Below are positions 19,837-60,040 of a stretch of DNA of 64,000 bases, in pieces. The notes under the pieces were generated by a model. It saw only the letters and a list, made by a program, of their open reading frames with translations, made no database searches and was not told where the DNA came from. Position numbers and translations under genes: made by a program. Where the stretch lies: contig NZ_AP025508.1 of the NCBI RefSeq assembly GCF_024347615.1, positions 2,232,001 through 2,296,000 of the forward strand, read 5' to 3'. The stretch is from Vibrio splendidus (GTDB lineage: Bacteria; Pseudomonadota; Gammaproteobacteria; Enterobacterales; Vibrionaceae). Within the stretch, counting starts at the first letter, position 1. Each line of letters begins with the position of its first letter.

Positions 19837-19894
19837 CTTGAGACCTTTATTTATGTTTTTTGTTGAGGTCACTATAGATAGATGGCAAGCATAT

Positions 19895-19905
19895 TTGTAC
19901 TACAA
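19895..19905. promoter_or_regulatory. FadR-type operator, upstream of symporter copy 1
   Basis: TTGTACTACAA is a perfect palindrome fitting TNGTNNNACNA, 59 bases before the start codon. The surrounding promoter sequence is shared with the second symporter gene (site at 49857). Confidence 0.65.
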
Positions 19906-21434: not shown

Positions 21435-22988
21435 ATGAAAATTAAAACCTCCCTTTTTAGCCTTGCTTGTTTATCCATTATTTCGTTATTGGTTGTCGTC
21501 TCATTCACTGAAATGGCAAACCTAAAGCTGATCAAACTTGAGAAAACCCTGATCAAGGTGAAGTCGCTTGAAGTTTCGATGCTTCAACTAAATCGAACGG
21601 AACTAGAGTTTCTGATCAGTCACGACAAAGCCCTCAAGCCTGAATTCGCCAAAGAGTATTCACACTTCCAACAGTTGATGAATAGCTTCTCTGTTTTACT
21701 TGAAGAGTCAGATATAGCGGTGCCTGAGTTAGACAAGCTGACACGAGAAGTAAAACAATACGACAAAGATTTTTCCTTGATGGTAGACGCGATAGAACGC
21801 AACCCTGCAAAGGTCAGTGAGCTGAAATCAGAAATGAAAATGCTGTTTGAAGATATCATCTCGATATTTACCGGCGTTGAAGGTCGTTTAGAACAACAGG
21901 TCGAATCGATTCAACAAACCATCACTACGTTTATTGTGAGTTCCGTAATCGCCGTCACTGGATTACTGATCGCACTGTCCTTTGGGATCTCATCGCGTGT
22001 CGCTAAGAAGATAGCCTCGTTAAACGCAACCATGTTGCACGTATCCCAACAACGTGACTTTACCGTTAAAGCGGAAGACAGCGGTTCAGATGAAATTGCG
22101 GATATTGCCAAGTCATTTAACACCGTCTTAGAAGATATTCGTCAACTTGTTGGTCAAGTACAAGGGTCGATCCAAGAGCTCGGCAACATTTCGAACCAGT
22201 TGCAACACGACGGTATAGAAGTGGAAAGCGCTTTAAACAAGCAGCAACGACAAACAGAAAATATTGCGACCGCGATAAATCAAATGGGCAGCAATATCCA
22301 AAGTGTTGCGACCAATAGTGAAAATGCATCATCAAATGCTCAGACCAGCTTCTCCACGGCAAATGATGGCCTGAACGATGTGGCCTTCACCAGAGACACA
22401 ATCAATACGCTTTCAACTGACTTAGTGAGTGCGAGTGAAGAAGTGAATCGCCTTTCTGTGCACTCAGAAAAGATCAATACCGTACTAGAAGTGATTAAAG
22501 ACATTGCTGAACAAACCAACCTACTCGCTTTGAACGCCGCTATTGAAGCAGCGCGCGCTGGAGAGCAAGGTCGTGGTTTTGCGGTCGTCGCCGATGAAGT
22601 GAGAACCTTGGCTGGCAGAACACAGCTTTCAACCGAAGAGATCTCAACCATTATTCAAGGGGTTCAAGATCAAACCCAAATGGTGGTTAACACGATTCAA
22701 AATTGTTGTGAAAAAGGTAACAGCAGTGTCGACTCTTGTGAGAAGGCACATTCAAGAATCACATCGGTTATCGCAGACATGGAAACCATTCTAAATAACA
22801 GTTTAGAAGTCTCCAATGCAATGAAGGAGCAAAGTGAAGTGACGTCAGAGATCATCGAAAACGTAGATGCCATTAAACAACTGACACTGACGAATGTAAC
22901 GAGCGCTTCAAAAAACGCCGCTTCTGCAACTTCAGTGGTAGAACAGACAAACTCACTTGAACGCGCTGTCATCAACCTAAAAGCTTAG
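21435..22988 (+). CDS. Methyl-accepting chemotaxis protein
   Basis: From ATG 21435 ([20 protein letters not shown]) the protein has 517 residues. TM1 is at about 7-27, then a small, probably four-helix periplasmic domain (28-165), TM2 at about 166-188 ([17 protein letters not shown]), a HAMP domain (190-245) and a cytoplasmic signalling coiled coil with the conserved hairpin tip [19 protein letters not shown] and [12 protein letters not shown]. It would signal through CheA/CheW at the cell pole. The ligand is unknown. Its position next to symporter and porin genes suggests sensing of an alginate-related compound, which is inference. The C-terminus lacks a CheR-binding pentapeptide. Confidence 0.9.
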
Positions 22989-23048
22989 CTCTTAAGGCGC
23001 GGCTTACACGTTTTTGCTTATCAAACTATTCTCTACTCAAATTTCAGA

Positions 23049-23130
23049 TAAAAAAACGCTCATGTTGCCTGTATCAACATGAGCGCAAGGGTAGATCTTC
23101 GACTACCGTCTCCTACCTTTCTAAACGAAA
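23049..23130 (-). ncRNA. Candidate small RNA, three hairpins, about 82 nt
   Basis: The minus strand carries a strong orphan terminator: the stem CGCTCATGTTG (23057-23067) / CAACATGAGCG (23075-23085) is 11 bp and perfect, followed by seven U. No gene reads into it from the right on this strand for over 1.6 kb. Upstream on the same strand come GGTAG-TCGAAGAT-CTACC and CTTTC-GTTTA-GAAAG hairpins, and a TATAAC -10 element at 23142-23137. This gives a compact transcript of about 82 nt with three stems. I do not recognise it as Spot 42, a Qrr or any other known Vibrio RNA. Confidence 0.55.
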
Positions 23131-23718
23131 GCAGAAGTTATAATTAGAATAGTTGGGAGCAATAATCAAAATGCTTTCGCAAGCACTTCAACGATTTCTT
23201 CTTTGTCGCTAATAAGAACAACGGGAAACCATTCGAACCCTGTTCATTCCTATCAAGTTCATATCTATATAGCAGGCTATGTCACTGCCTTGCCTACTAC
23301 ATTTCAAACCATCTCTGGTCGAGCTCTATAACACCTAAAACAAATGCTAGCGGTCTAAAGCATTTTGGCTTTCAGCCATTTTTCCTTTCTAACCATTTAG
23401 CCTTTAAATCGTTCTTACTTATCCGCTTCGCAGCGTCAGTTCATGCAATCAACACAGCAAAGTTATGTGTTGCTACAGAAAGCTAGTAAATAATAATGTA
23501 TTACAAATGAAAATAGCATCTAAAGATTCAATTTTTTGCTGTAGCGCACATTTATTGATGAACAAAACCCTTAAAAATCATGACCAACATACAAATAAAA
23601 CACTAAAAATCATAAACTTACCATCGCAAACTGACTTTGTAACCCTTTGTAAATAGTGGTTTTGTCCCCACAACACGATCCAATTCACAGATCATGCGCC
23701 TTCAAATCGTTAGCATAT

Positions 23719-27537: not shown

Positions 27538-28257
27538 TTAACTAGCGATTGGTAACCTGTGGTTCGTTTCTAGCAAGTGACTCGCTGACGCTTGACGCGC
27601 TTTATCACTGTTCCCCGCCATGATTGCTTCATAAATTTGGCGGTGCTCTTCAATGCAGGTACTTCCCTCTTCAGAAGAGTGAGAAATAAAATTAACAAAC
27701 ATAGTCGTTAAGATATTGCCGAATGGTAGGTAAAAGTCGTTCCCTGTTGCGTTGAAGATTAGGCTATGGAACTTCATATCAATATCTAGCCAACGCTCTT
27801 TATCAAGAATCTCTTCGCTAGATATCTCCACCATTTTTTGGAAAATTTCTGATAATTCAATTCGTTGATCTGCAGTCGCAAATTTAGCGGCCAACGCACA
27901 AGCTTCAGGTTCGATGGCACGGCGCAAGCCTAAAAACTGATGGCAGAATTGGTCGGTGTCAGCTAAACCGTCCATCCATTCGATCAATTGTGGATCTAAG
28001 AAGTTCCAGAACGCGCGGTCAACAACACGAGTACCAATCTTAGGGCGAGATTCTAATAGGCCTTTTGAAGTAAGAAGCTTAACCGCTTCTCTTAATGCTG
28101 TTCTACTGATACCAAATTGCTCACACAGAGCCATTTCACCAGGGATAATAGAACCTTGAGGCAAATTGCCCGACAAAATACCACGAGCGATTTCACGTGC
28201 AACTTGCACATGAAGGCTTCGCTTAGAGCCTGAAATAGAATTGAAATGACCAGCCAT
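27538..28257 (-). CDS. FadR-subfamily GntR regulator A
   Basis: The 239-residue protein has an N-terminal GntR winged helix (about 10-78: GEMALCEQFGISRTALREAV, LLESRPKIGTRV) and a C-terminal FCD domain (about 95-230) with the histidines and aspartate that bind a metal and a carboxylate effector (H168 in DIDMKFHSLIFNATGN and H in FISHSSEEGSTC). It is almost the same protein as regulator C (54468-55184) and a more distant paralog of regulator B (29578-30300). The start region and upstream site (TCGTACTATAA) suggest autoregulation. By position it most likely controls alginate genes, with DEH or KDG as the natural effector candidates; that is inference. Confidence 0.9.
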   Translation of the reverse strand: MAGHFNSISGSKRSLHVQVAREIARGILSGNLPQGSIIPGEMALCEQFGISRTALREAVKLLTSKGLLESRPKIGTRVVDRAFWNFLDPQLIEWMDGLADTDQFCHQFLGLRRAIEPEACALAAKFATADQRIELSEIFQKMVEISSEEILDKERWLDIDMKFHSLIFNATGNDFYLPFGNILTTMFVNFISHSSEEGSTCIEEHRQIYEAIMAGNSDKARQASASHLLETNHRLPIAS

Positions 28258-29577: not shown

Positions 29578-30300
29578 ATGTCAATATTTACATTGGTGGA
29601 AGATTCAAGCCGCCGAATTCATGTTCAAGTCGCTAGACAAATTGCTCGCAAAATCTTGTCTGGCGAGTTGAAAGAAAATCAGAAGTTACCTAGCGAAATG
29701 GAGTTGTGCGAGATCTTTGGAGTCAGCAGAACTGCCCTTCGAGAATCCACTAAACTGCTTTCAGCAAAAGGGTTGATTGAATCAAAGCCTAAAGTGGGCA
29801 CTCGTATCAAACCAAGAACGCAATGGCACTTTTTAGATCCTCAATTACTGTATTGGATCCAAGATTTAGAAGACACCAAACCCTTTTTATCTCAATTCTT
29901 GGGGTTAAGAAAAGCGATTGACCCAGAAGCGTGTGCGCTTGCAGCATCCAACGCTACGGTAGAGCAACGCAAAGAGCTTTCGATTCTTTTCCAAAAGATG
30001 ACCATCGCGGCAAACGGCTTTGATTATCAAGAGTGGACAACCAACGATCATCTGTTTCACCAAACGATTTTCTTATCGACGGGTAACCAGTTTTACATTC
30101 CGTTCGCGAACATTCTGTCGACAATTTTCAAACAGTTTATCGACCACTCTGCCGAAGGCGGTCGCTTCTGTTTAGAAGAGCACAAAGCGATATACGATGC
30201 GATTATGTCAGGCAATGCGAATCAGGCTCGAATAGCCTCTCAAGCTTTACTTGATGATGAAAACCAAAAGCTGTCTAGGGTTGAATTAGCCATCGCATAA
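29578..30300 (+). CDS. FadR-subfamily GntR regulator B
   Basis: The 240-residue protein has the same domain layout as regulators A and C (HTH about 10-78: SEMELCEIFGVSRTALREST; FCD about 95-230, with H in NDHLFHQTIFLSTGNQ and IDHSAEGGRFC), but is clearly more divergent in sequence. The HTH recognition helix (SRTALRES) is nearly identical to that of A and C (SRTALREA), so all three could bind the same or overlapping operators while answering different ligands. It has no strong operator immediately ahead. It is followed by the MATE gene with 156 bases between them. Confidence 0.88.
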   Translation: MSIFTLVEDSSRRIHVQVARQIARKILSGELKENQKLPSEMELCEIFGVSRTALRESTKLLSAKGLIESKPKVGTRIKPRTQWHFLDPQLLYWIQDLEDTKPFLSQFLGLRKAIDPEACALAASNATVEQRKELSILFQKMTIAANGFDYQEWTTNDHLFHQTIFLSTGNQFYIPFANILSTIFKQFIDHSAEGGRFCLEEHKAIYDAIMSGNANQARIASQALLDDENQKLSRVELAIA

Positions 30301-38999: not shown

Positions 39000-39221
39000 A
39001 TAAAACACTTCGTTGGATAAATGAGACTAGGAACACTTTCCGATTTTTCCATACTTTAACTGGATCACATTTCCTATTGATAAAAGACAATATATAAGAA
39101 TTTAGAATGCGAAATGAGCTAGCAAGGGCAGAACAAGCAAGCTGTAATCGTGTGTATTTTCATGGTTCGGGCAGAATATTTGTCCTTCCAAACACATCAC
39201 TGTAAGTGTCCAAAAACAAAA

Positions 39222-39252
39222 AAGACCACATTGTAGGTATCAATATGGTCTT
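39222..39252 (-). terminator. Terminator after the tandem PL7 gene
   Basis: A 12-bp stem with one mismatch and a 7-base loop; the minus-strand continuation is TTTTTTGTTTTTGG. Confidence 0.8.
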
Positions 39253-39289
39253 CTTCATTACCGACATGGCTAATCAAACATCAGACAAC

Positions 39290-41032
39290 TCAGTTATGCT
39301 CTGCTCTTAGAGAACTAAAGCTCACATCAAACACCTCGCCGATGTAGTCGCTGTCCGGCTTAAACTGTGGATAGATGCCTGCTTTGAAATAGAAAGCAAT
39401 GTCTGTCGATGTCCAATCTGCTGTTAACGAAACCGTGTCCCCATTTTTATCTGAGTAATCCTTTCCCCACGGGATTAGGTGAGAAACTGTATTAGTTCCA
39501 TCTAAATCATGAGTCGCCAAGTAGATACCGTCTTGATTGGCTCGAATCGTATATCGCCACTCTTCACTTGCCGAATAAGTGCCTAACTCGACACTGAACG
39601 GGTCACAATGATTACAATCTTGGTTGTTGCGTTCAAAATCGGAGTTCAGTATCACTCTTACTGGCTTACTCTCGCCTTCCCATAACAGCTTCACCAATGC
39701 TTGATTGATCTTCCAACCATGGATTTGCCCAACTACCACTTTTGGATCTTGATTGTTAATGTTCGGGTAATCTTCAACTCGTAAGCTTGCGGTTAACTCG
39801 TGACTGGTAGCGTTCGTTCTGGTGTCGTCCAAATACCAACTAGTATCTTCATCGCTGGTGCTACAATCCGGTTGAGTACTACTTTGATACAACTCCCTTA
39901 ACTCAGAGCGAATATAGCTAGAATTTTCGGTAGATGTGCCATAACCCATATCCGCTCTAAAGTGCATTCTTCCTTCATCGGTATTGAAATAAGAAAGGTC
40001 AATATCGCTGTCGTAGACGTCACTGTCGTTGGCGAGAAGGTCTTTGCTCGATTCGCAGCGCTCAGGTTCTAGTTCAGCCGCACTGTCACCCCCACTTCCA
40101 TACCAAGTGTCTTTGCTCGCTGGAATCGTCAACTTCCAATCATTAATATCCCAATCGTTTGAGCCGTTGGTCTGTGTGGTGGTGTATCGCAGTGCCTGAA
40201 AATGAGCCGTGGCTTCGCCATTTTCAAATTGATTATAGATACCCGCTTTAAAATAACTCAGCAGATGCTGCCAGTAGGTGATGTCTTCGTCGACTTTAAC
40301 TTCATCGTTCACTTTGATCGAAAGGGTGTTTTCATAAACAGAGAGATCAAACTTGGTGAAGCTATCGAGCTCCGCCTCTCCTAAATCATAACGATTATAT
40401 GAAGTGGCGTAACAATCCGAAGAGTCAGCAGCGCTGCTACAGTCAATGGCATTATTTTTCATGATTGCCCAGTAGTGACCTGTGAGGCCATCTCGTTCTT
40501 GCTCCCAAACCACACGTAATAGTGGATGAGGGATATAACCCGTACCACTCTCGTCTGTACCTTTATTGTGGATCTGTAGCACGGTCACTTCATCGTGATC
40601 TGCGGGAGAACTCGCCATTACATGCTCAATATTAGGCAGACTTATTTCCGCATGTAGACTGCGTCTTACGCCTGCTTCATTGATATCGAAGTTTTCTCCT
40701 TCACGAACTTCAGAGCGCATCTTGTAGTTCGCCATTTTGAAGATAAGATTTTCCGTCTCTTCGTCAGCATAAAAATAATCACTGACATAACCATCGAAGT
40801 TACCATCTTTGACTTCAGAGGTTTTATTGCCCTCCTCTCCATTAGGATCAGACACCTGAAGATCTGAGCTGGAAAGGATGCTTTGATACTTGGCAATATC
40901 ATAGGGAGCAACAACACCATAAGATGCTCCTGGGTTATTGGTATCAGAAGGGTCACTTGAGTCACCGGAACTGCTTCCACCGCAGCCATACGTAAACGAA
41001 GCGAGTACGACGACAAAGATTGGCTTATTCAC
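39290..41032 (-). CDS. Bimodular alginate lyase with two PL7 domains, lipoprotein
   Basis: The 580-residue precursor starts at GTG 41032, with a lipobox (ASFTYGC, lipid Cys17) and a Ser/Gly/Asp linker. Two PL7 domains follow. Domain 1 (about 38-287) has RSEVR 106-110, QIH 153-155 and YFKAGIYNQ 260-268. Domain 2 (about 292-578) has RSELR 375-379, QIH 436-438 and YFKAGIYPQ 548-556. All catalytic positions appear intact in both domains, so both may be active. The two are quite different in sequence, with different cysteine sets (CSS ... DC in domain 1; DCNHC in domain 2), so this is an old fusion, not a recent duplication. A half operator (TTGTACTATTT, 41075) precedes it. Confidence 0.92.
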   Translation of the reverse strand: MNKPIFVVVLASFTYGCGGSSSGDSSDPSDTNNPGASYGVVAPYDIAKYQSILSSSDLQVSDPNGEEGNKTSEVKDGNFDGYVSDYFYADEETENLIFKMANYKMRSEVREGENFDINEAGVRRSLHAEISLPNIEHVMASSPADHDEVTVLQIHNKGTDESGTGYIPHPLLRVVWEQERDGLTGHYWAIMKNNAIDCSSAADSSDCYATSYNRYDLGEAELDSFTKFDLSVYENTLSIKVNDEVKVDEDITYWQHLLSYFKAGIYNQFENGEATAHFQALRYTTTQTNGSNDWDINDWKLTIPASKDTWYGSGGDSAAELEPERCESSKDLLANDSDVYDSDIDLSYFNTDEGRMHFRADMGYGTSTENSSYIRSELRELYQSSTQPDCSTSDEDTSWYLDDTRTNATSHELTASLRVEDYPNINNQDPKVVVGQIHGWKINQALVKLLWEGESKPVRVILNSDFERNNQDCNHCDPFSVELGTYSASEEWRYTIRANQDGIYLATHDLDGTNTVSHLIPWGKDYSDKNGDTVSLTADWTSTDIAFYFKAGIYPQFKPDSDYIGEVFDVSFSSLRAEHN

Positions 41033-41269: not shown

Positions 41270-43186
41270 TTAAACCTTAAAGCTGCTCATCAAGTCACTA
41301 ACGCTGCCGTTAAGTGTTTTGATTTCTGCTGATTCAATCAGCTGATCTTGGCTTAGCTTATTAAGCTCCTCAACAAAGCTTTCAATCTTATGCATGTTCT
41401 TAGCAATGCTCTGAATAAGGGCGTTTTGCTCAACAGACGAACCCGAAATGTCATTATTAAAACGACTTACTGTTTCCATCTGCTCGGTTAGCTTCGCCAA
41501 CATGTTTACAGCTTGAACAACTTGAGCGCGAGTCAGTTCACAGTTACTTTTGGTCAACTCAATCGATTTAACCAAACCATCTGATTTAGATTGCAAGCCA
41601 GAGAGCGCTTCATCAATTTCAGAAGTACTGATTTGAGTTCGGTTGGCTAACGCACGGACTTCATCAGCAACCACCGCGAAACCTCGACCATGCTCACCCG
41701 CCCTTGCCGCCTCGATTGACGCATTCAATGCCAGCAAATTAGTTTGTTCCGCAATCCCGCCAATCACAGACACGATAGACTGGATGCTCTGCGTTTCATT
41801 GGCCATTGAGCGAATATCATCAGAGGTGGTGCAGACTTGCCTCTCAAGATCACTGATATAGGTTTCCGTCACCATGTTAATCTGTTTCGTCTCATCACTG
41901 AACACAGCCGCTTCTCTTGCTGCTTCTGCCGCCGACTGAGAACTCTTCTCGACTTCGTTTGATGCTTCAGACAAGCCGTTAATCGCAGAGACCACTTGAA
42001 CCGTTTCATCAGTATGAACTTTCAATACATCGCTGGTTTCTTTGCAACCTTCCCTAATACTCAATACCTTGGTATCGAGATCCGAGTTCTTGAATTTGAC
42101 GTCCTTAACCATCTCTTGTAAACCGATAATGAACAAGTTTATGTCTTTGGCGATATGCCCTAAGTCGTCATTCCCCTTCTCAGCAAGCCTTTGGGTCAAG
42201 TCTCCGTTACCTTGAGATAGGTCGTGGACGATTTTACGCAGTGAAACGATTGGGCGGTAAAAGCGATTTAGAAGCAAAATCATCAATATCACCGTGCCAA
42301 GCACACAAGCAACGATAAGGATGCGCGCACTCGACATCACGCCATTCAACTGATTGAGCGCGAGTTCAGGGTCAATACTGGAGATCATGAACCACTCTTT
42401 CTGGCTGCCAATATCCACTTTCTTGGCCATCAAGATTCTCTGGTTGCCATCAATCACACCCTCAATGAATTGATCAGGCTGTTCAATGGCACTATTGAGT
42501 TTCATCTGAGTGTCTGCAGAAGATATATTGCTTTGCGGAAGCACGTTTTCGATTGTTGAAGCGACCACCATCCCCGTCTCGTCGATGATAATGCCTTTGG
42601 CTTCGTAGATGCTGTCCAGCTGTTCAAGCTGCGTTTCCAAATCGTCAAAACGTATATCGGCCATGATGACACGATCTTGGTATGAGTACGTCACACCAAT
42701 CATAGGCACTTGAGTACTCTTAGTGAAAAACAGGTCACTAAAAGATAAGCCTGATTTCAATTTGGCTTGTTGATACCAAGGTCGAGTGGTTGGATTGTAC
42801 TTTTCTTTTATTCCAACACCGTTAGGGAAAGACTCTGAAGGGCGAGAGGTATAAGAACGGCCGTCGTCAAAACCCACCACAATCTTGTCAATGCCACCAA
42901 GCTTAGCCGCATAATGCATGAGTGCTTCATTCGGCACTTGGTATGGGGATTTCGTAAACTCTTGTGCAACAGAGTTAACGGTATCGATGGTGCGCTGAAC
43001 GGTACTTTCTATTTGATTGATTTCTATCGTAAGCGAGTGATCAATCTCGTTATAAATCGTTTGGTTTACCTGTTCAGTGGCCAAGTTAAGCGTAAACCAG
43101 TTCGTAAATGCCAAAGCACTAGAACTGACGACCGCTACCATTAAAATCAATTTTCCTTTAAACCCTAGAGACAATTTTGAATTCAT
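41270..43186 (-). CDS. Methyl-accepting chemotaxis protein with dCache periplasmic sensor
   Basis: From ATG 43186 ([20 protein letters not shown]) the protein has 638 residues. TM1 is at about 10-30, a large periplasmic dCache-type domain covers about 35-275 ([58 protein letters not shown]), TM2 about 280-300, a HAMP 305-355 and the signalling coiled coil with tip [20 protein letters not shown]. The R-P-W-Y motif is common in dCache sensors of amino or organic acids. Placed between alginate lyases and the DEH reductase, it is a candidate receptor for alginate products. ATGs at 43195/43198 are alternatives. A weak-U terminator at 41182-41212 follows. Confidence 0.9.
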
Positions 43187-43614
43187 AAAACTCATCATCC
43201 ATATCAACCTATGTCTATTATTTTCATCCGAATGAAATGGCCATTTTTTACATTTTCGAAGATACGGAAAGCGAAACTTGTTCATGCCGATCCATCGTCA
43301 CAACCATCAATTTAATTAATATTGTATGCTTAATTAACCAGGCATTCTGTGAGCGATCTTGATATATTAAAACTGGCTAAAACCGCCCTGTGACATAGGT
43401 ATCATTTATGAGTTTGGATTTTGTTCGAAGTTAAACATTGACGCATAACACATTCAAATAGATCGATTTTTAGATAATTTTCTCATCATTTCTCCGATAA
43501 CATCTTTTCGAAAACTCTTCTTCTTTACCTCACCCCGCTGAGTGTAAAAATGAGTCTTAACTCACACTTCTACCAACTAATCATTCACTAAAGGCATTCA
43601 ATCTTAAAATTTAT

Positions 43615-43625
43615 TTGTAATACAA
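43615..43625. promoter_or_regulatory. Perfect FadR-type operator in front of the orphan transcription unit
   Basis: TTGTAATACAA, ten bases ahead of a TACTAT -10-like element (43635-43640) on the plus strand. The nearest plus-strand protein gene is over 7 kb away, so the operator seems to serve the RNA candidate. The chemoreceptor gene at 43186 is divergent and could be a second target. Confidence 0.6.
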
Positions 43626-43646
43626 TAAATCTTGTACTATGGTGTA

Positions 43647-43856
43647 TTTGAATCATAACTTAAGTTCTTTCTGGATGCTTTTGTTCAATTCAAAGTGATA
43701 ATTGAAGCAGCCGCTTTAAGGTCATTGAACGCGTTTAACGTAGAAACTGTCGGGGGATCTCGTTATTCGTTTTTTCACTTACTATTGCTCATTTGTTTGT
43801 CCAGACGGCTCGTCCGAACATGCCCATACAGTCACCAGCTGTGTGGGCTTTTTTTT
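43647..43856 (+). ncRNA. Candidate regulatory RNA of about 210 nt under a FadR-type operator
   Basis: It starts by inference about seven bases after TACTAT (43635-43640) and ends at a strong terminator: GCCCATACAG (43822-43831), loop TCACCAG, CTGTGTGGGC (43839-43848, one G-U pair), then eight T. No ORF with a ribosome site lies between. An unpaired U-rich stretch (43770-43800) contains CTTACTATTG, which can pair over 10 bases (two G-U) with TAATAGTGAG in the leader of the second porin gene (33649-33658), just ahead of its ribosome site. The layout of promoter, operator and terminator without a gene is the evidence; the transcript itself is unproven. Confidence 0.5.
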
Positions 43857-43990
43857 ACTTTCTTTTCAGGCCCGATACACGAGCGGTGTTAAGTCATCAC
43901 CAACAATCCTGTAAGTGCACTGGTTTTAAGTTTGCGTAGAAAAGTAAGTGAACGAGTGGGTGCTAGAAGGCTTTGAATTTGCCGTTAGAA

Positions 43991-44081
43991 ATAGATATAG
44001 ATATAGATATAGAAAAAAATAGGAATTGAGGCAGTAACAGAGTTTTGATTAGGTGTAGCTGAGGAAGTAGAAGTAGAAGTA
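43991..44081. repeat. Two simple-sequence tracts
   Basis: ATAGAT units (43991-44012) and GAAGTA units (44064-44081) lie in noncoding DNA past the reductase terminator. They are typical slippage repeats. Confidence 0.7.
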
Positions 44082-44120
44082 GAAGATTTTAACGAGGGAA
44101 CAAAGGTTGGATATGGCAGA

Positions 44121-44179
44121 TAAAAACGAACCTCGCTGAGGTATCGCCGCCTAAAAAGACAGGCAATACCCTAGCGAGG
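44121..44179 (-). terminator. Terminator after the DEH reductase candidate
   Basis: CCTCGCTGAGGTATCGCC (44131-44148) and GGCAATACCCTAGCGAGG (44162-44179) pair over most of 18 positions; the minus strand continues TTCGTTTTTATC. Confidence 0.8.
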
Positions 44180-44190
44180 TCGTACGTCGA

Positions 44191-45072
44191 TTACTTCTCT
44201 AGTTTAGCGAAGTAGTCGAAGATTACTGGTACGTCGTTGTTACCCATGCCAGCATCTACAGCAGCTTGTAGGCTTGTTGCAGTACCTTGAGCGATTAGAG
44301 ACTCAGTACCTAGCTCTTCACAAAGAGCAAGGAAGTAACCAAGGTCTTTGTTTGCGTTAGCAACAGAGAAACCTAGCTTCTCTTCGCCGTCTACTGCGTA
44401 GAACTTACAGAATTGCATGAACGGAGAGTTAGATGGACCTGCAGACATGATGTCAAACAGTTGTTGGCCATCAACACCAGCGCGTTGAGCAACAGCGAAA
44501 GCTTGAGACATAGTCGCAACAGTTGTCATACCCATGAAGTTGTTTACAAGCTTAGTCACGTGACCAGAACCTAGAGCGCCTAGGTGGAATACGTTTTCGC
44601 CTTGCTCTTCAAGAACAGGTTTAACTTTGTTGAAAGTTTCCATGTCGCCAGCAGCCATGATGTTCAGAAGACCATCTTTAGCGTGTGCAGGAGTACGACC
44701 TAGAGGTGCGTCGATCATGCCCGCGCCTTTTTCAGCAAGAGCTGCGCCGATTTTCTTAGTAGAAGCAGGGATAGAAGTACCGAAGTCTACTAGTACTGCG
44801 CCTTCTTTGATGCCCGCTAGAACGCCGTCTTCGCCGTAAACGATTTTTTCAACAACAGCAGAAGTTGTCAGACAAAACTGAACGATGTCACTTGCAGCAG
44901 CTAGTTCTTTAGCAGAAGTGAATGCAGTTGCGTTGCCGCGATCTGTAACGCGAGCAACAGCTTCAGCGCTTAGATCCATTACGTTTACGTGGTAGCCGCG
45001 CTTTTGTAGGTTTTCAACCATGTTGCCGCCCATAAGGCCTAGGCCAATGAAACCGATTACAGGTTTAGTCAT
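44191..45072 (-). CDS. Beta-hydroxyacid dehydrogenase family NAD(P)H reductase, best DEH reductase candidate
   Basis: From ATG 45072 the protein has 293 residues: an N-terminal Rossmann domain with GFIGLGLMGGNMVENL, the family linker region (DAPLGRTPAHAKDGLLNIMA) and a helical C-terminal domain with the catalytic lysine in GSGHVTKLVNNFMGM. This is the 3-hydroxyisobutyrate/tartronate semialdehyde reductase family. In Vibrio splendidus the DEH reductase DehR belongs to this family and lies beside oligoalginate lyase genes, as here. It would reduce DEH to KDG in the cytoplasm. The start is chosen for GGAG eight bases ahead; a TTG six bases upstream is the alternative. A half operator TTGTATGATTA (45094-45104) precedes it. 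Confidence 0.88.
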   Translation of the reverse strand: MTKPVIGFIGLGLMGGNMVENLQKRGYHVNVMDLSAEAVARVTDRGNATAFTSAKELAAASDIVQFCLTTSAVVEKIVYGEDGVLAGIKEGAVLVDFGTSIPASTKKIGAALAEKGAGMIDAPLGRTPAHAKDGLLNIMAAGDMETFNKVKPVLEEQGENVFHLGALGSGHVTKLVNNFMGMTTVATMSQAFAVAQRAGVDGQQLFDIMSAGPSNSPFMQFCKFYAVDGEEKLGFSVANANKDLGYFLALCEELGTESLIAQGTATSLQAAVDAGMGNNDVPVIFDYFAKLEK

Positions 45073-45721
45073 GTTCAAACTCCAAATATAGTATTGTATG
45101 ATTATATGCTCATTATAATAACGACGTCTTTCTCGTTACGCAATAGTTTTAGGGCATTGATTTGATGGTTAGACGCAAGTTGTGACGGGGGTTCACTTTA
45201 CGAGAAAATATGGGGCACGCTTTGTACTTACAGGAACTATTTGCCACTTTAAAAACTGTCTATTGATGAAATAACATACGTTAAATGTCATACGATTAGT
45301 AAGAACAAGCTACGCCTTTATCTATGTATAGTTCACTACTCCCTTACTCAGCCAGTGATTAGGCTGTTCACGGAAAAGTAAGTCATATCAGTTTTTAGGA
45401 AACAGGTGTTGCGCCCTACTCTTCTAACAAAGCGACACATGCGAGTCTCGTATACGACTCCTGCACATTTCATTCAGCATAGTGGCTAAGTACATGCCCG
45501 GTCTTTGTGTGTATCAGTGTCCAGATTTAGCCCTGGGCCACTGACTTGGCATCGAGAAGCTATTTATCTCTGACCAATTAAGTTTTCTTGCAACCTGATG
45601 GGTTTGCCACTTATCCAACTTAACTGACTTATCCAACTCCAACTTAATTGGCTAGCCAAACAAAAAAACTCCGAGCTTTCACTCGGAGTTTTTAATATCT
45701 AGCTTCTGTTACTTCAGCGAA
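45073..45721. other. Intergenic region between the reductase and PL15 genes
   Basis: Near the reductase start lies TTGTATGATTA (45094), a half-conserved regulon site. Near the PL15 end lies the terminator 45662-45693 (AACTCCGAG / CTCGGAGTT with A and T runs on both sides, bidirectional). Repeats of TTATCCAACT type occur at 45612-45650. The 400 bases between show no gene. Confidence 0.5.
45662..45693. terminator. Bidirectional terminator after the PL15 gene
   Basis: AACTCCGAG (45667-45675) and CTCGGAGTT (45682-45690), flanked by a run of A on the left and T on the right. Confidence 0.85.
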
Positions 45722-47800
45722 TTACAGTTCGATTGAAACCGTTTCACCGTCAACATTTAGCAGTAGCGTGTTGCCTTCAAGCTTGTGAGACACTTCAACT
45801 TGCTCGCCTTCGTTCTTATTAGGAACAAGAAGCGTCAGGATGTTGTGCTCTTTCGATGGCTTGAATTCCACTTCAACGTGACGGTGGATCTCAAGATCTT
45901 TGAACTCGTATGGGTCAACTTCGCCAAAACCTTCAACGTTCTTAACTGACGTGATGTTATCAGCAGACTCGTTGATGAAGTTTACGTCTAGGTGCGCAAC
46001 TTCGCCACGGATAGTGAAAGACTTGTCTGCCACTTCGTTTGCGAAAGTTGTGTGCATTAGCCAAGTCATGTCTTTCTCTTCAGAAAGCGTTGCCTTGTCT
46101 TGCATTACGAAGACTTTACCTTGAACGAACCAGACTTTACGCTTGTAAGATTCGATTTCAGGAACGAAGTACTTGTAAGATGCCGTTGCATCACCTTCAA
46201 CCATCTTCACATCAGATTCTGTGTCAAAGTCAGAGATAGTGCCGCCCGCTTCGATACAGAAGCGATCTTGGTGGTTTTCGTAGCCTGTGTTCTTGTTCTC
46301 GCCGTACTGACCTTTACCGCCAAATAGTGGAAGGTTTTTAGAGAACGTTTGACGACGCCATTTCGTGTGCATATCAACACCGAAACCACCGTAGTAACCT
46401 GTTACTGACGCTAGCGTTTCACCAAATGCGTGAAGCGTAAATGCGTTTTGGTCACCGTGAGAGTGGCTGATTGAGCCAAACGGAGAACATTTGAATACCA
46501 TGTGAATATGGTTATCACGCTCAGTCATCTTGTTGTGGAATGCAGCCCAACCCGTGATTGGGAATACTTTCAACAATGGATCGTTCGATGGGGCTTTCTC
46601 TTCAGGTGCATCCCAAAGGAAGTTAAAACGAAGATCGTCATAACCGAAGTCCCACCAACCGAAGTTGTAGAATTTAGTGTGTGCTTCAGTATCACGGCCT
46701 TTCAGTTGGTTGTAGTACCAAACGTACTCAGGCTTCTGGTTAACACCTGCGTAATGCTTGATGTTGTAAGCCAGTTTTAGACCTGGGAAATCACCGATTG
46801 AAGACTGGTCACAGAAGCTCGCGCGCTTAGAGTGAACAGGCATGCAGTAAAGCGGGAAATCACCTGTGTTTTCGTAGAATGTTTTGTTAAACATGTCTAC
46901 ACCACAGTATGCTTTCAATAGGTCGAATGCTTCGCCTAGGAATGCAGTTTGCGTGTTCCAGTAATCAGGACCTTCAGCCCAACCGCCGTCTACACCGCCC
47001 CATGGTGGGTAATGTACTGCGTAGTATTCTAGCGCGTATGCAATGTACTCGCCTGCTTTCGGGTGATCGTGGTAAAGCGCGATACACGTTGGGATGATAG
47101 CAGAAGAGATAGAACGAACACCGTGGCTGTTTAGTGGGTTGTTCAATAGATCAACCGTCACTTTCAGGTGGTGCATGATTTCGTCTAGACGCTCAATCAA
47201 AGCATCTTGAACTTGCTGGCGTTCTTCATCTGTGAAGTAGCCGTGTAGCCAGTCGTAACCCCAAGCCATAGCAGCGATAACACGGAAAGCCGCTTCATCG
47301 TTATAGCCACGAGAAGTCACGCCTTCTGGATCGTACGTAGACAGTTTTAGAGTCCAAGCTTTTGCTTTCGCAATGAGCGCTTCGTCTTCTTTTACAACAC
47401 CAGCAATCGCTAGGTTACGTGTCGCGTTCAGTGCCATTTGGCAATCAACGTACATTTGACGCCAATAAGGACGCCATAAAGAAGCTTTACCTACCGTCTC
47501 AGCTGGGTACGCTTGAGGCTCTTCGAAAGGAGCAGTCTCAAGGAACTTAACGGTAGAGTTGTTGTAGAAATCATCAAACATACAGTGAGCTTGATCAGCT
47601 TTCACTTTTGCTTTGAATTCTTCTAGCTGATCAGCTTGAACGAGAAGACGCGGACGTGCTTCGCTCAAGGTGTCTAGGAATGATAGGTCGAAGTCACGTG
47701 TTTGAACTTCGATAGGGAGTAGGTCTACAAGATTACCTGCTGAAGTATCGTTTTCCAGCTTCATCTTCCTGATTGCATCAAGAGATTTTTGGTCGCTCAT
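45722..47800 (-). CDS. Exo-type oligoalginate lyase, polysaccharide lyase family 15
   Basis: The 692-residue protein has no signal peptide, so it acts in the cytoplasm. An alpha/alpha toroid fills about 80-400 (AAFRVIAAMAWGYDWLHGYF, NNPLNSHGVRSISSAIIPTC with the candidate catalytic His226, GGVDGGWAEGPDYWNTQTAF), then a heparinase II/III-like beta domain (about 410-690: FGSISHSHGDQNAFTLHAFG). The pattern matches PL15 exolyases such as Atu3025, which cut unsaturated or saturated monomers from alginate chain ends. Of the exolyases in this window it is the only PL15; the others are PL17. A regulon-type operator (TTGTAGGACAA) lies 58 bases upstream. It appears to be transcribed separately from the downstream reductase. 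Confidence 0.88.
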   Translation of the reverse strand: MSDQKSLDAIRKMKLENDTSAGNLVDLLPIEVQTRDFDLSFLDTLSEARPRLLVQADQLEEFKAKVKADQAHCMFDDFYNNSTVKFLETAPFEEPQAYPAETVGKASLWRPYWRQMYVDCQMALNATRNLAIAGVVKEDEALIAKAKAWTLKLSTYDPEGVTSRGYNDEAAFRVIAAMAWGYDWLHGYFTDEERQQVQDALIERLDEIMHHLKVTVDLLNNPLNSHGVRSISSAIIPTCIALYHDHPKAGEYIAYALEYYAVHYPPWGGVDGGWAEGPDYWNTQTAFLGEAFDLLKAYCGVDMFNKTFYENTGDFPLYCMPVHSKRASFCDQSSIGDFPGLKLAYNIKHYAGVNQKPEYVWYYNQLKGRDTEAHTKFYNFGWWDFGYDDLRFNFLWDAPEEKAPSNDPLLKVFPITGWAAFHNKMTERDNHIHMVFKCSPFGSISHSHGDQNAFTLHAFGETLASVTGYYGGFGVDMHTKWRRQTFSKNLPLFGGKGQYGENKNTGYENHQDRFCIEAGGTISDFDTESDVKMVEGDATASYKYFVPEIESYKRKVWFVQGKVFVMQDKATLSEEKDMTWLMHTTFANEVADKSFTIRGEVAHLDVNFINESADNITSVKNVEGFGEVDPYEFKDLEIHRHVEVEFKPSKEHNILTLLVPNKNEGEQVEVSHKLEGNTLLLNVDGETVSIEL

Positions 47801-48018: not shown

Positions 48019-49797
48019 TTAGCTTTCAGTTACAACTTTAGCTTGCTTGCCGCCGTCATCGACCGCTTTCACAAGTAGAACACCGACACCACCAACTATC
48101 ACACCACATAAGATGAAGACTAGGCGTCCCCACATTGGGTTAGTCAGAAGAGCCATCAGCATAATACCAACACCCGCTACTGCGATAAGCTTACCAAGCA
48201 TTTGACGTTGTTTGTTATCCAACACTTTTTGCTCTGCCGATTCAGCTACTAATGGTGTATCTAAGTTGCCAAAGAACTTATCAACATCCGCTTGACGTTC
48301 TTTTGAGAGAGGCTTGTAGAACATCGTAGATAGTACGAAGAAGCCACCGGTTAGCGTGATGTGAGCAATGAGACCAATCGCAACTTTAACATCAGACCAT
48401 TCACGTCCTGTTAGAGTATCAAGACCAAACGCCGCTGCTACCATCTCTGCGTCGATAACAAAACCAACCACATAAGATACGATACCACCAACAACTAGCG
48501 TACCCCAACCAGCCCAGTCCGGAGTCTTCTTGATGAAGAAACCAAGGAATGCAGGAATCGTCATAGGGAAACCGATTAACGCACCTACGTACATCATCGT
48601 ATCAAACAGGCTCAAACCTTTAAGCGAGTTGATGAACTGTGCGATAAGGATAATAGCGAAGCCAAATACCGCTGAAGTAATTTTAGATACGGTTACTAGC
48701 TCTTTCTCTGATGCTTGACCTTTACGAACGATTGTTTCGTAGAAGTTCTTAACAAAAATACCTGAGTTACGGTTTAGACCTGAGTCCATTGAAGACATTG
48801 TCGCTGCAAACATCGCGGCAACTAGAAGACCAACCATACCTGCTGGCATGTACTCTTGTACGAAGTATAGGTAAGCAAAGTCACCCGCTTTTTTACCTGC
48901 ATTCGGGTAAGCCGCGGATAAATCAACACCTTGGCCTGCAATGAACCAAGAAGGCATGAACCAAATAAACACACCACACAACATCAACACACAAGCAAGC
49001 AATGCAGCTTTCTTAGCATTCTTTGAATCTTTTGCTGCTAGGTAACGGTATGAGTTAAGCATGTTGTTCGTGATTGAGAACTGCTTAACGAAGATGAAGA
49101 ATGCCCAAATCGTAAAGATGCTTAGGTAGTTGATGTTGTTGCCCCAAAGGAACGAACCACCATCTTGTACTGGGAAGTTGTTAACAATCTCACCAACACC
49201 GCCACCTTGAACAACCGCTACAACCGCACAAGTTACCGTTACCGCCATGATGATAACCATCTGCATGAAGTCAGATGCGTTTACCGCCCATGAACCACCC
49301 GTTACCGACATTGCCAATACCACTAGGCCAGTCACCCAGATAGTCATGTTCATGTCGAAACCGAAGATACCCGAAGCGATGATTGCCAATGCGTTTAACC
49401 AAACACCCGCAGATACCACTGAGTTCGGCATTGAAGACCAAGTGAATACTTGTTCGTTGGTCGCACCAAAACGCATACGAATCGCTTCGATTACCGTAAC
49501 AACGCGAAGTTGACGGAATTTCGGCGCGAAGTACGCGTAGTTCATGAAGTAACCAAATGCGTTGGCTACGAAGATGACCGCTACAGCGAAACCATCGTTA
49601 TACGCTTTACCTGCTGCACCGGTGAATGTCCATGCACTAAACTGGGTCATAAAGGCGGTTGCACCAACCATCCACCACAACATGTTACCGCCCCCGCGGA
49701 AGTAGTCACTAGTAGTACTTGTAAATGTTCTAAACATCCAACCTATCGCAATCAAGAATAGGAAATAAATGCCGACAATAATCGTGTTGAGTTCCAT
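48019..49797 (-). CDS. Sodium:solute symporter, candidate unsaturated uronate/alginate-monomer importer (copy 2)
   Basis: The 592-residue protein starts MELNTIIVGIYFLFLIAIGW and is close to copy 1 (18064-19836) along its whole length, for example SAWTFTGAAGKAYNDGFAVA and DTMMYVGALIGFPMTIPAF. It has about 13 to 14 TM segments in the SSS fold. Differences cluster at residues 215-235 (periplasmic loop, with DGGSFLWGNN inserted) and in the C-terminal tail. The promoter region is also shared with copy 1, including the operator at the same distance. It is likely the partner of the PL15 exolyase and reductase genes next to it. Two copies may differ in affinity or timing; this cannot be read from sequence. 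Confidence 0.9.
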   Translation of the reverse strand: MELNTIIVGIYFLFLIAIGWMFRTFTSTTSDYFRGGGNMLWWMVGATAFMTQFSAWTFTGAAGKAYNDGFAVAVIFVANAFGYFMNYAYFAPKFRQLRVVTVIEAIRMRFGATNEQVFTWSSMPNSVVSAGVWLNALAIIASGIFGFDMNMTIWVTGLVVLAMSVTGGSWAVNASDFMQMVIIMAVTVTCAVVAVVQGGGVGEIVNNFPVQDGGSFLWGNNINYLSIFTIWAFFIFVKQFSITNNMLNSYRYLAAKDSKNAKKAALLACVLMLCGVFIWFMPSWFIAGQGVDLSAAYPNAGKKAGDFAYLYFVQEYMPAGMVGLLVAAMFAATMSSMDSGLNRNSGIFVKNFYETIVRKGQASEKELVTVSKITSAVFGFAIILIAQFINSLKGLSLFDTMMYVGALIGFPMTIPAFLGFFIKKTPDWAGWGTLVVGGIVSYVVGFVIDAEMVAAAFGLDTLTGREWSDVKVAIGLIAHITLTGGFFVLSTMFYKPLSKERQADVDKFFGNLDTPLVAESAEQKVLDNKQRQMLGKLIAVAGVGIMLMALLTNPMWGRLVFILCGVIVGGVGVLLVKAVDDGGKQAKVVTES

Positions 49798-49856
49798 CGT
49801 GTATCCTTTGTCCGTTTTAATTTGTTATGAGGACTATAGGAAATTCGACTCTTTAT

Positions 49857-49867
49857 TTGTAGTACAA
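49857..49867. promoter_or_regulatory. FadR-type operator upstream of symporter copy 2
   Basis: TTGTAGTACAA, perfect palindrome, 60 bases before the start. The flanking bases resemble those of the copy 1 promoter (ATAATCCAAATAAGTG here, ATAGTCTAAATACGTG there). Confidence 0.65.
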
Positions 49868-50733: not shown

Positions 50734-50744
50734 TTGTCATACAA
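50734..50744. promoter_or_regulatory. FadR-type operator upstream of the TTT transporter operon
   Basis: TTGTCATACAA fits TNGTNNNACNA, and lies 38 bases before the first gene of the operon. Its reverse complement shares TTGTATGA with the half sites before the SDR and reductase genes. Confidence 0.6.
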
Positions 50745-51252: not shown

Positions 51253-51277
51253 TAATTAGAAACAGAAGGAACTTACT

Positions 51278-52204
51278 ATGAGTAAATTATTAAAATCCAT
51301 CATGCTGGCAGCTGGCATACTTGTTTCGGCAACGTCGATTGCAGCAGACTACCCGAGCAAAAACATTCGCTTAGTTGTCCCATTTGGCGCGGGCGGCGGT
51401 ACAGATGCAGTTGGCCGCACCCTTGCAAATAGTGCGAAAGACATTCTAGGACAAAACATTTCAATCATGAACCGTACGGGTGGTGCGGGCGCCGTAGGTA
51501 TGAGCTTTGGTGCTCAGCAGCGCGCTGATGGTTACACGTTGACGGTAGTCACTCGTGAAATCGCTTCGCTCCCTCAAATGGGTTTGATGCGCCATACCGC
51601 AGACGATTTTAGACTCATTCGCTTAGTAAACCTCGACCCAGCGGTCGTATTAGTTGCAGCCGATAGCCCATACAACACCATTAATGATCTGATTAAAGAA
51701 GCCAAAGAAAAACCTGGTAGCGTGAAATTTGCTTCAACCGCTGCGCCAAACTTCTACTTAATGTCTCTTGAAAAAGACCAAGATATTAAACTCAACGCTA
51801 TCCCTTATAACGGTGCATCTGAAGCGATTCCTGCAGTACTAGGCCACCACACAGACGTAACCATGGTGACACCGGGTGAAGCTATCGCTCAACTTCGTTC
51901 AGGCCAACTAAAAGCATTAGGTGTCATGTCAGAAGAACGTATTCAGTACATTCCCGATGTTCCTACTTTGAAAGAGCAAGGTATTGATGTAGTAACAGGA
52001 ACATGGCGTGGTATCGGCGCTCCAAAAGATACGCCGGATGCAGTCATCGAGAAACTAGGTGCGGCATTTGATGAAGCAATGGCAAGTGAAGAGTTCAAGT
52101 CTTTCATGGCAAAAGGCGCAATGACTATCCACAATCTTGACGATAAAGCCTTCACTACGTTCGTTTCCGAAGATACAAAATCGCTTACTGAACTAATTCA
52201 ATAA
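51278..52204 (+). CDS. Tripartite tricarboxylate transporter substrate-binding protein (TctC/Bug family)
   Basis: The 308-residue precursor has a signal peptide (MSKLLKSIMLAAGILVSATS, cut after IAA), then DYPSKNIRLVVPFGAGGGTD, the diagnostic TctC/Bug start, which places the ligand carboxylate in a loop. Other marks are VGMSFGAQQRADGYTL, ILGQNISIMNRTGGAGAVG and GVMSEERIQYIPDVPTLKEQ. Known ligands include citrate, dicarboxylates, aromatic acids and sugar acids. It has a terminator right after it, consistent with higher expression than the membrane subunits. With the regulon operator upstream, an alginate-derived acid is a reasonable ligand, as inference. Confidence 0.9.
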   Translation: MSKLLKSIMLAAGILVSATSIAADYPSKNIRLVVPFGAGGGTDAVGRTLANSAKDILGQNISIMNRTGGAGAVGMSFGAQQRADGYTLTVVTREIASLPQMGLMRHTADDFRLIRLVNLDPAVVLVAADSPYNTINDLIKEAKEKPGSVKFASTAAPNFYLMSLEKDQDIKLNAIPYNGASEAIPAVLGHHTDVTMVTPGEAIAQLRSGQLKALGVMSEERIQYIPDVPTLKEQGIDVVTGTWRGIGAPKDTPDAVIEKLGAAFDEAMASEEFKSFMAKGAMTIHNLDDKAFTTFVSEDTKSLTELIQ

Positions 52205-54467: not shown

Positions 54468-55184
54468 CTACGCTGTAGCCAAACGGTGGTTGGCATCTTG
54501 CAAGTGAACGGCAGAAGCAATTCTAGCCTTGTCACAATCACCGGCCATGATAGCTTCATAGATTCTGCGGTGTTCATTGATACATGTGCTTCCCTCTTCA
54601 GAAGAATGCACGATGAAGTTAACAAACATCGTAGTCAGAATATTACCGAACGGTAAATAGAAGTCGTTACCTGTCGCATTGAAGATCAAGCTATGGAAAC
54701 GAGTATCAATATCTGTCCAACGTTCTTGGTCAAACACTTCAGCTTCATCCACTTCGACCATCTTTTGGAAGATCTCTGAAAGCTCGATACGTTGCTCAGC
54801 CGTCGCAAATTTTGCCGCCAGTGCACACGCTTCAGGTTCAATCGCACGGCGAAGACCTAAGAACTGTGAACAGAATTGGTCTACGTCGGTTAGACCGTCC
54901 ATCCATTCAATCAGTTGAGGATCAAGGAAGTTCCAGTATGCGCGGTCGACTACACGAGTACCGATTTTCGGGCGGGACTCTAACAGACCTTTAGAGGTCA
55001 ATAGTTTAACTGCTTCACGAAGTGCCGTTCGGCTGATACCAAACTGTTCACACAACGCCATTTCACCAGGAATAATAGAACCTTGTGGCAGTTCGCCAGA
55101 CAAGATTCCACGAGCGATTTCACGAGCTACTTGCACGTGCAGGCTGCGCTTCGAGCCCGAAATTGAATTAAAAGTGGTAACCAT
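54468..55184 (-). CDS. FadR-subfamily GntR regulator C, near duplicate of regulator A
   Basis: The 238-residue protein matches regulator A almost residue for residue: the stretches FNSISGSKRSLHVQVAREIA and GEMALCEQFGISRTALREAV are identical, and most differences are in the first five residues and around 150-175 (VDEAEVFDQERWTDIDTRFH). The HTH is at about 10-78 and FCD at about 95-230. The DNA-binding part is the same, so both should bind the same operators; effector response may differ slightly. The upstream GTATTATTTAA ... ACTATAACA block is shared with regulator A. The pair brackets the lyase, symporter and porin genes. Confidence 0.9.
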   Translation of the reverse strand: MVTTFNSISGSKRSLHVQVAREIARGILSGELPQGSIIPGEMALCEQFGISRTALREAVKLLTSKGLLESRPKIGTRVVDRAYWNFLDPQLIEWMDGLTDVDQFCSQFLGLRRAIEPEACALAAKFATAEQRIELSEIFQKMVEVDEAEVFDQERWTDIDTRFHSLIFNATGNDFYLPFGNILTTMFVNFIVHSSEEGSTCINEHRRIYEAIMAGDCDKARIASAVHLQDANHRLATA

Positions 55185-59185: not shown

Positions 59186-60040
59186 TTAGAACCGCACTTC
59201 GTTAACGACAGTACCTACTCCTTCAATGGTGACACTCACTTGGTCTTTATCGGATAAAGCAAACGTTCTGCCCGGTGTGCCCATAAAAATAAGATCGCCC
59301 GGCTTGAGAGTAAAATAGTGACTCAAGTAGCTGACGACTTTTCGAGGCTTGTGAATCATGAAAGACGTATTTTCTTGCTGCACAACCTCGCCGTTAACGC
59401 GTGTGGTCAGTTGCACGTTGTTATAATCGACACCACGAACAATCGTATTACCAATTGGGCCAAAGCCATCGGATGCTTTCGCTCGTAACCATTGTAAATC
59501 CGTGCCTTGCCAGCTTCTCTCTGTAATATCGTTACCCACAGTGACACCAAAGATCGCTTGTTCCGCCTCTTCTTCACTGGCTCGGCTCAACTCTTTACCA
59601 ATCACAACCACCAGCTCGCCTTCAAAATGAACGTTCTTCGCTTTCGGTGGCACTTGAATCACTTCGCCTGTGAGGGTTAAAGAAGAAGGAAGCTTAAGAA
59701 ACATAGGTGGCGGCGCATCGGCAGGTGATGCTAGGTGACTAGCGAAGTTCATGCCGACCGCAAACACCTTTTCAGGCTTGGTAGGCAATAATACTTCGAC
59801 TGACTCAAGAGGAATCGAGGTTTTTGCGACTGCATATTCACCGAAGATGTCACCACTGATTGGCAACACAGAGTCTTTATCTAACTTCCCATAGCTGATC
59901 TTATCTTGATATTGATAGCGCACGAACTCCTCAGTTTCGACGCTGCTATCAGACTCGTCATTTGCTAAAGCAGCGTTAGCAAAAACAAAGGTAGAACAAG
60001 ACACCGCAAGTATTGATACCAACCCTTTCATTAACTTCAT
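59186..60040 (-). CDS. Fumarylacetoacetate-hydrolase-fold enzyme with an export signal
   Basis: The 284-residue protein opens with a signal-like segment (MKLMKGLVSILAVSCSTFVF, then ANAALANDES). A lipobox reading (AVSC, Cys15) is less likely than cleavage after ALA. The body is the FAH fold (PF01557): KVFAVGMNFASHLA, the metal-binding set E-x-E in HFEGELVVVIGKE and D in TVGNDITERSWQG, and GDLIFMGTPGRTFALSDKDQ near the end. Family members act on 2-oxo acids (hydratases, decarboxylases, hydrolases) and are normally cytoplasmic. Placed between the PhnCDE-like transporter and the PL17 operon, a periplasmic 2-oxo acid reaction is conceivable. No regulon operator is seen upstream. Confidence 0.82.
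   Translation of the reverse strand: MKLMKGLVSILAVSCSTFVFANAALANDESDSSVETEEFVRYQYQDKISYGKLDKDSVLPISGDIFGEYAVAKTSIPLESVEVLLPTKPEKVFAVGMNFASHLASPADAPPPMFLKLPSSLTLTGEVIQVPPKAKNVHFEGELVVVIGKELSRASEEEAEQAIFGVTVGNDITERSWQGTDLQWLRAKASDGFGPIGNTIVRGVDYNNVQLTTRVNGEVVQQENTSFMIHKPRKVVSYLSHYFTLKPGDLIFMGTPGRTFALSDKDQVSVTIEGVGTVVNEVRF

Follow-up and report, generated by a model that had tools for sequence, protein, structure and literature searches.

The intergenic stretch at 43615-43856 of the window (the whole 64,000-nt stretch of Vibrio splendidus DNA that was analysed) very probably holds a real noncoding transcription unit, here called sRNA1, which is likely an operator-controlled small RNA acting in trans. 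It is flanked by MCP2 (41270-43285, minus), a dCache chemoreceptor gene divergent from sRNA1, and by a 3-hydroxyisobutyrate-dehydrogenase-like reductase gene (44191-45078, minus), which is the next gene downstream and is convergent with sRNA1. The surrounding alginate locus comprises several lyase genes, two KdgM porins, two SSF symporters, a tripartite transporter (tct) and three GntR-FCD regulators; lyase labels (PL6, PL7, PL15, PL17) are our interpretation of Pfam matches. In coastal seas alginate is one of the major sources of carbon, and research on how vibrios use it has dealt mostly with enzymes and transporters. The features discussed below are collected in Table 1.

Table 1. Positions in the window of sRNA1, its putative sibling RNA3, and associated sites and regulators
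Feature	Position	Strand	Basis
sRNA1, about 207 nt, noncoding, start predicted near 43650	43650..43857	+	Conservation; covariance-model matches; fold z -2.9
sRNA1 intrinsic terminator	43822..43856	+	Terminator scan, conservation, consensus structure
GntR-type operator TTGTAATACAA, core of invariant block TTTATTTGTAATACAAT	43615..43625	.	Exact match; alignment
Proposed -35 TTGTAA, within operator	43615..43620	+	17-nt spacing to 43638-43643; 4/6 to consensus; absent from scan list
Proposed -10 TATGGT	43638..43643	+	4/6 to consensus
5' conserved region, proposed seed	43651..43671	+	43651-43666 invariant; predicted pairing with transporter ribosome sites
Predicted sRNA1 pairing site, tctC mRNA (Shine-Dalgarno and start codon)	51263..51282	+	Prediction
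Predicted sRNA1 pairing site, SSF2 mRNA	49789..49814	-	Prediction
RNA3, putative sibling RNA of about 120 nt, TTGCTCCCA 5' region, TACAGGC-loop terminator	23046..23166	-	R2 match 23046-23164, 29.3 bits; relatives in other vibrios precede SSF genes
Operator TTGTAATACAT, about 330 nt upstream of RNA3	23496..23506	-	Operator scan
SSF1 symporter operator	19895..19905	-	Operator scan
SSF2 symporter operator	49857..49867	-	Operator scan
Operator variant TTGTCATACAA before tct (TTT) genes	50734..50744	+	Operator scan
GntR-FCD regulator a	27538..28257	-	Pfam GntR and FCD
GntR-FCD regulator b	29578..30300	+	Domain search
GntR-FCD regulator c	54468..55184	-	Domain search

Conservation, terminator and structure of sRNA1

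sRNA1 is an intergenic unit closed by an intrinsic terminator. The strong terminator named in the original prediction was recovered as an 11-pair stem (43822-43848) followed by T8 on the plus strand, ending at 43856; since the terminator scan as a whole performed at chance level (4 vs 3.8), the real evidence for it is its conservation. In an oriented alignment of 17 genomes, evaluated in 20-nt bins, conservation upstream of the operator amounts to 0.67-0.76 (43410-43549) and to 0.86-0.88 on the MCP2 side (43550-43609). It reaches 0.98 in the operator bin, stays at 0.91-0.99 throughout the RNA body with the exception of one bin (0.81), stands at 0.994 in the terminator bin (43830-43849), and past the terminator drops to 0.77 and then to 0.57. 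In the same alignment the MCP coding region scores 0.72-0.89 and most bins of the reductase gene 0.94-1.00. Pairwise identity of sRNA1 among the 17 genomes averages 91%, with a minimum of 84%.

The window sequence folds with a z of -2.9, and none of 200 shuffles was as low. In the consensus structure 98.6% of cells are paired and 11 cells are changed on both sides, neither value being matched in 500 shuffles. Covariation is thin: both partners are changed in only 3 of 59 pairs, a number reached by 73 of 500 shuffles, further pair types are fewer than in shuffles (18 vs 18.9), and most pairs never vary. Rfam gave no match above the gathering score in the window, and none up to E=1 at 43500-43950. 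The T8 tail behind the terminator stem is compatible with an Hfq-dependent sRNA.

Operator, proposed promoter and putative regulator

The perfect operator of the original prediction is indeed present as an exact TTGTAATACAA, and the whole block TTTATTTGTAATACAAT is without change in 17 of 17 aligned genomes; the operator was also found in three further sRNA1 members (G199, G205 and G221). The TACTAT element fared less well: it exists at 43635-43640, but in the window's row alone (1 of 17), and as an unconserved motif it was ruled out as the -10. TTGTAA-N17-TATGGT fits better as a promoter candidate. It is weak, agreeing with the sigma-70 consensus at 8 of 12 positions, and is kept in relatives, the -10 reading TAAGGT or TATTGT in some of them and TATAGT, at unchanged spacing, in G221. 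The sigma-70 scan does not list this pair, nor any other promoter at sRNA1, and gave 4 across 42000-46000 against 7.8 in shuffles. If TTGTAA-N17-TATGGT is the promoter, the RNA would start near 43650 and the operator would overlap the -35, an overlap that we consider probable.

An exact search for TTGTANTACAA over the genome (5.88 Mb) returned 13 palindromic sites; the reversed control gave 15, so there is no excess. Six of the 13, however, fall inside one 48-kb stretch around the alginate locus where 0.1 would be expected (binomial P ~5e-10, an optimistic value because the stretch is bounded by the sites themselves). Our operator scan of the window shows that the alginate genes and sRNA1 have the operator in common.

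The operator core TTGTAGTACAA is also the core of IR1 of the Escherichia coli DgoR operator (PMC12288454). DgoR is a GntR/FadR dimer that represses through two inverted repeats overlapping the promoter. Both operators share the core, and that of sRNA1 would likewise lie over a promoter; the DgoR operator controls D-galactonate genes, and no sRNA is mentioned in the part of that paper compared here. An alginate locus much like that of the window, with three gntR genes, a porin, and SSS and TTT genes, has been described in Vibrio sp. C42, where most locus genes rise with alginate (PMC13390454, as far as the source was compared); the words sRNA, operator and promoter are absent from the main text of that paper. 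We infer that sRNA1 is switched by the same regulator as the alginate genes. Because the promoter would overlap a GntR-type operator, a GntR-FCD repressor of the locus can be expected to hold sRNA1 off until alginate products arrive, upon which the RNA would be co-induced with the alginate genes, end at its own terminator, and act in trans. The action in trans is suggested by the lack of a co-oriented gene downstream. Control by the alginate GntR system together with action in trans is, to our judgement, quite likely.

Distribution among Vibrio genomes

Conservation in Splendidus-clade genomes had been put forward as a check on the unit, and blastn, alignment and covariance model all find it kept in Splendidus-group genomes. 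By blastn, 17 of 196 Vibrio genomes contain the region at almost its full length, and three short matches were found in addition. The carriers named in an exact pattern scan (6 stretches) are V. crassostreae, V. splendidus, V. lentus, two Vibrio sp. and one uncultured Vibrio, and 'Splendidus group' is a label that we derive from these names. The covariance model R1, built from the 17 sRNA1 sequences, has matches of 166-263.5 bits in 20 of 227 Vibrio genomes, the next match scoring 27.3 bits. Among ten weaker matches (22-27 bits), nine share another sequence, which we take to be the start of guaC, and one, in G164, resembles a relative of sRNA1. Two low-scoring R1 matches may be recorded separately: one in the window at 39215-39346 (minus; 22.6 bits), near the PL7 lyase genes, which may be chance, and one at L060 2077-2159 (26.4 bits).

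An oligoalginate lyase (E<=1e-100) occurs in 16 of the 17 carriers among the 196 genomes and in 51 of the 196 overall, so most lyase genomes are without sRNA1. The exceptional carrier, G120, has no match to this lyase; it has SSF2, the tct genes, three GntR genes, two PL7 lyase genes and the reductase, to which sRNA1 is adjoined, and no MCP2 match within the 19.5 kb examined. Genome G163 has the lyase and a symporter and no sRNA1 match, nor a chemoreceptor match in the 14 kb examined of its 18.4-kb contig.

Probably related RNAs upstream of SSF symporters

The RNA in G164 that resembles sRNA1 has a terminator and is preceded, at 83 nt, by an operator; it is situated before an SSF2 gene that has an operator of its own. 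Its body is matched in six other Vibrio genomes, in G192 in part only. A model of these seven non-Splendidus RNAs, R2, was used in whole-genome scans of the 227 genomes. With a cut-off of E<=0.1 per genome it recovers the locus of sRNA1 in 14 of the 20 carriers, the best match having an E-value of 1.5e-6 and the one in the window 0.035. These values are rough, and the terminator contributes part of the score. The 49 R2 matches listed divide into 7 training members, 14 sRNA1, 14 upstream of listed SSF matches, and 14 elsewhere; the best of the last group has an E-value of 3.3e-4, and some are stronger than that of the window. The two-way link between R1 and R2 is good but not final evidence of kinship, and in view of the off-locus matches and the terminator's share of the score we regard the kinship as probable rather than proven.

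R2 led us to shorter RNAs upstream of SSF genes. SSF was found in 94 of the 227 genomes, and 80 SSF-upstream regions were picked by hand among the matches listed; one of them, of only 176 nt, was set aside, so that 79 were analysed. In 71 of these hand-picked regions an exact operator precedes the SSF match start by no more than 150 nt. R2 matches occur in 33 of the 79 (5 being training members), in all 33 cases on the symporter strand. Of the 33 matches, 23 (19 of 28 once the training members are excluded) are preceded within 700 nt by an operator with no more than 1 mismatch, compared with 68 of 1580 windows of letter-shuffled sequence. Some of these operators may in part serve KdgM genes, which are divergent in some loci. 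Seven SSF-upstream regions (L149, L150, L155, L157, L158, L160 and L166) have no operator at up to 1 mismatch, so symporter paralogues outside operator control may exist. We think it probable that sRNA1 belongs to a broader family of operator-linked RNAs.

The window itself contains a second probable member, RNA3, also an orphan RNA, which heads towards a convergent gene (21324-22988, plus) as sRNA1 likewise does. The operator upstream of it, TTGTAATACAT, could instead belong to the divergent porin gene KdgM1 (23817, plus). The comparative evidence bears out the orphan unit of the original prediction as noncoding, closed by a terminator and placed under an operator of the alginate type, with the correction that it has relatives, one of them at about 23166-23046 (minus).

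Two further observations concern this group of RNAs. In some relatives (L072-L075) a small hydrophobic frame of about 42-46 aa (e.g. L073 1160-1297) lies between a TTGTCATACAA operator and the RNA. By eye, the G-rich loop UCGGGGGAU of sRNA1 (window 43750-43758) is a near-complement of ACCCCUCGA in the SSF-linked RNAs (L072 1611-1619).

Alternative readings of the unit

The position of the related RNAs in other Vibrio lineages, upstream of an SSF symporter and on its strand, would suit a cis-acting leader or attenuator similar to the 5' leader of a transporter gene, as would Vsr217, which is located in the malK leader (PMC8265627). For sRNA1 this is unlikely, because the gene that follows it is convergent; the same holds for RNA3, and many of the SSF-linked cases have a terminator and a further operator between RNA and gene.

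A coding role for sRNA1, whether for a small protein or with a dual function as in VcdRP, also seems improbable to us. Six of the 17 genomes have an open ATG frame of 30 aa, but in the window it stops after 7 codons, and no frame of at least 8 codons is common to all 17. The ORF scan did find a 65-aa GTG frame at 43695-43892 in the window; the absence of an ORF asserted in the original prediction is therefore borne out as the absence of a conserved frame among the 17 genomes.

The conservation might further be ascribed to promoter DNA of the divergent MCP2 only, the operator being placed in the spacer upstream of that gene, which it could control too, and the flank on the MCP2 side being somewhat conserved. 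Yet the strongest block extends beyond the operator, away from MCP2, and ends at the terminator, and G120 keeps the block with no MCP2 match in the stretch examined, which makes this reading very unlikely.

Titration of a protein such as CsrA by the GGGGGA in a predicted hairpin loop (43752-43757) is highly improbable and was dropped, as CsrB-type RNAs carry many GGA motifs, whereas here one conserved GGA site was noticed and it is lost in G023 (row L006), which has GGGGGT.

Predicted targets of sRNA1

Returning to sRNA1 as a likely trans-acting RNA, its proposed seed is the 5' region, of which the invariant part has a mean predicted unpaired value of 0.60. The predicted duplex with tctC in the window has 13 contiguous pairs (one G-U) over the Shine-Dalgarno sequence and 5 over the start codon, and its energy of -21.8 kcal/mol places it no higher than the top 1% among segments of the window (322 of 31922). 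Among 44 ribosome sites of the window the ranking by duplex energy is tctC, tctB and SSF2, with KdgM1 and 59186-60040 sharing the next place; the starts taken for tctB (GTG) and KdgM1 (TTG) are putative. The SSF1 frame as listed begins with GTG at 19872 (minus), and the start common to its relatives (ATGGAACTCAA) is 19836; with this corrected start added, tctC, tctB, SSF2 and SSF1 come out on top. Of 400 shuffled 41-nt seeds none placed all four transporters on top, four placed three or more, and none reached the tctC energy; the transporter set was named only after the ranking was known, and SSF1 and SSF2 are paralogues. By an accessibility-based score tctC ranks fourth of 35, and 7% of controls are as good.

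Predicted tctC pairing in thirteen carriers ranges from -14.1 to -22.5, and is weak in G205 (-14.1) and G221 (-10.5); no tctC match was found in 6 of the 20 carriers. With the window seed, tctC of 16 genomes without sRNA1 (39 genomes have tctC; among 30 loci listed) gives -9.8 to -16.1, so that the ranges of carriers and non-carriers overlap, and kinship confounds their comparison. Pairing with SSF2 is kept in the seven genomes where it could be checked (-14.2 to -20.1), and the window seed pairs with SSF1 in three genomes without sRNA1 (G222, G115 and G108) at -15.7 to -16.2.

Three other pairings were discarded. Other family members and their own neighbouring SSF sites had no excess pairing (22 of the 33 were tried and 17 could be scored, with z from -1.0 to 1.2), which leaves pairing of these RNAs with the adjoining SSF mRNA unsupported. 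A 14-nt perfect complement to the sRNA1 5' region, presumably at the start of guaC, is also present in vibrios without sRNA1, with own-genome counts of 4 and 3 against 3 and 5 in the reversed control. Complements of CAGAARGAACTT occur at 5 places in the own genome (one in sRNA1 itself and one in tctC), the reversed control also giving 5, and no clear ribosome site was found at the other three.

These predictions suggest that the conserved 5' region could pair with the ribosome-binding sites of the mRNAs of alginate-oligomer transporters, tctC first and then SSF2 and SSF1, and that such pairing would trim uptake while the degradation genes are on. That the transporters are the main targets we hold to have somewhat less than an even chance. 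More tentative, and in our view rather doubtful, is the broader reading that a family of sibling sRNAs evolves in the uronate/alginate uptake loci of Vibrio under the GntR operator of the symporters, is induced by substrate, and pairs with transporter ribosome sites, thereby forming an incoherent feed-forward loop that would limit the uptake of alginate oligomers; in Splendidus-group strains there would be two such siblings, one of them having moved next to the reductase gene. This reading is weakened by the off-locus R2 matches and by the SSF1 pairing in genomes without sRNA1.

Relation to known small RNAs and significance

The nearest concepts to sRNA1 are Vsr217 and VcdRP. Vsr217 of Vibrio tasmaniensis LGP32, from the malK 5' UTR, is likewise an sRNA from this group of vibrios that is linked to a sugar regulon and induced through the regulator of that regulon; as described, it differs in being leader-derived, activated by MalT, and needed in cis (PMC8265627), whereas sRNA1 is free-standing, in the alginate locus, and has a GntR-type operator. 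VcdRP of V. cholerae is Hfq-dependent and represses sugar-transporter mRNAs at their ribosome sites (PMC8672173), an action that for sRNA1 is predicted only. In the same account VcdRP is repressed by CRP, is 306 nt long, encodes a 29-aa protein and has a CCCC seed; sRNA1 lacks a conserved frame, and no CCCC occurs in the window RNA. Another Vibrio sRNA affecting carbon use, srvg23535 of V. alginolyticus, adjoins rctB and measures 107 nt, unlike sRNA1 (PMC6186989, as far as compared).

The literature searched, mostly open papers, gave no description of sRNA1; a list of 250 sRNA candidates of LGP32 (Toffano-Nioche 2012, cited in PMC8265627) was outside this comparison and may include it. RNAs of this kind are known; in the literature searched, neither the family nor its place in the use of alginate appears to have been described. 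sRNA1 may tune the amount of alginate breakdown product that is taken up, and natural variants are at hand in G163 (oligoalginate lyase, no sRNA1 match) and G120 (sRNA1, no oligoalginate lyase). An sRNA family inside the alginate regulon, if true, would add to it a post-transcriptional layer that is directly testable.
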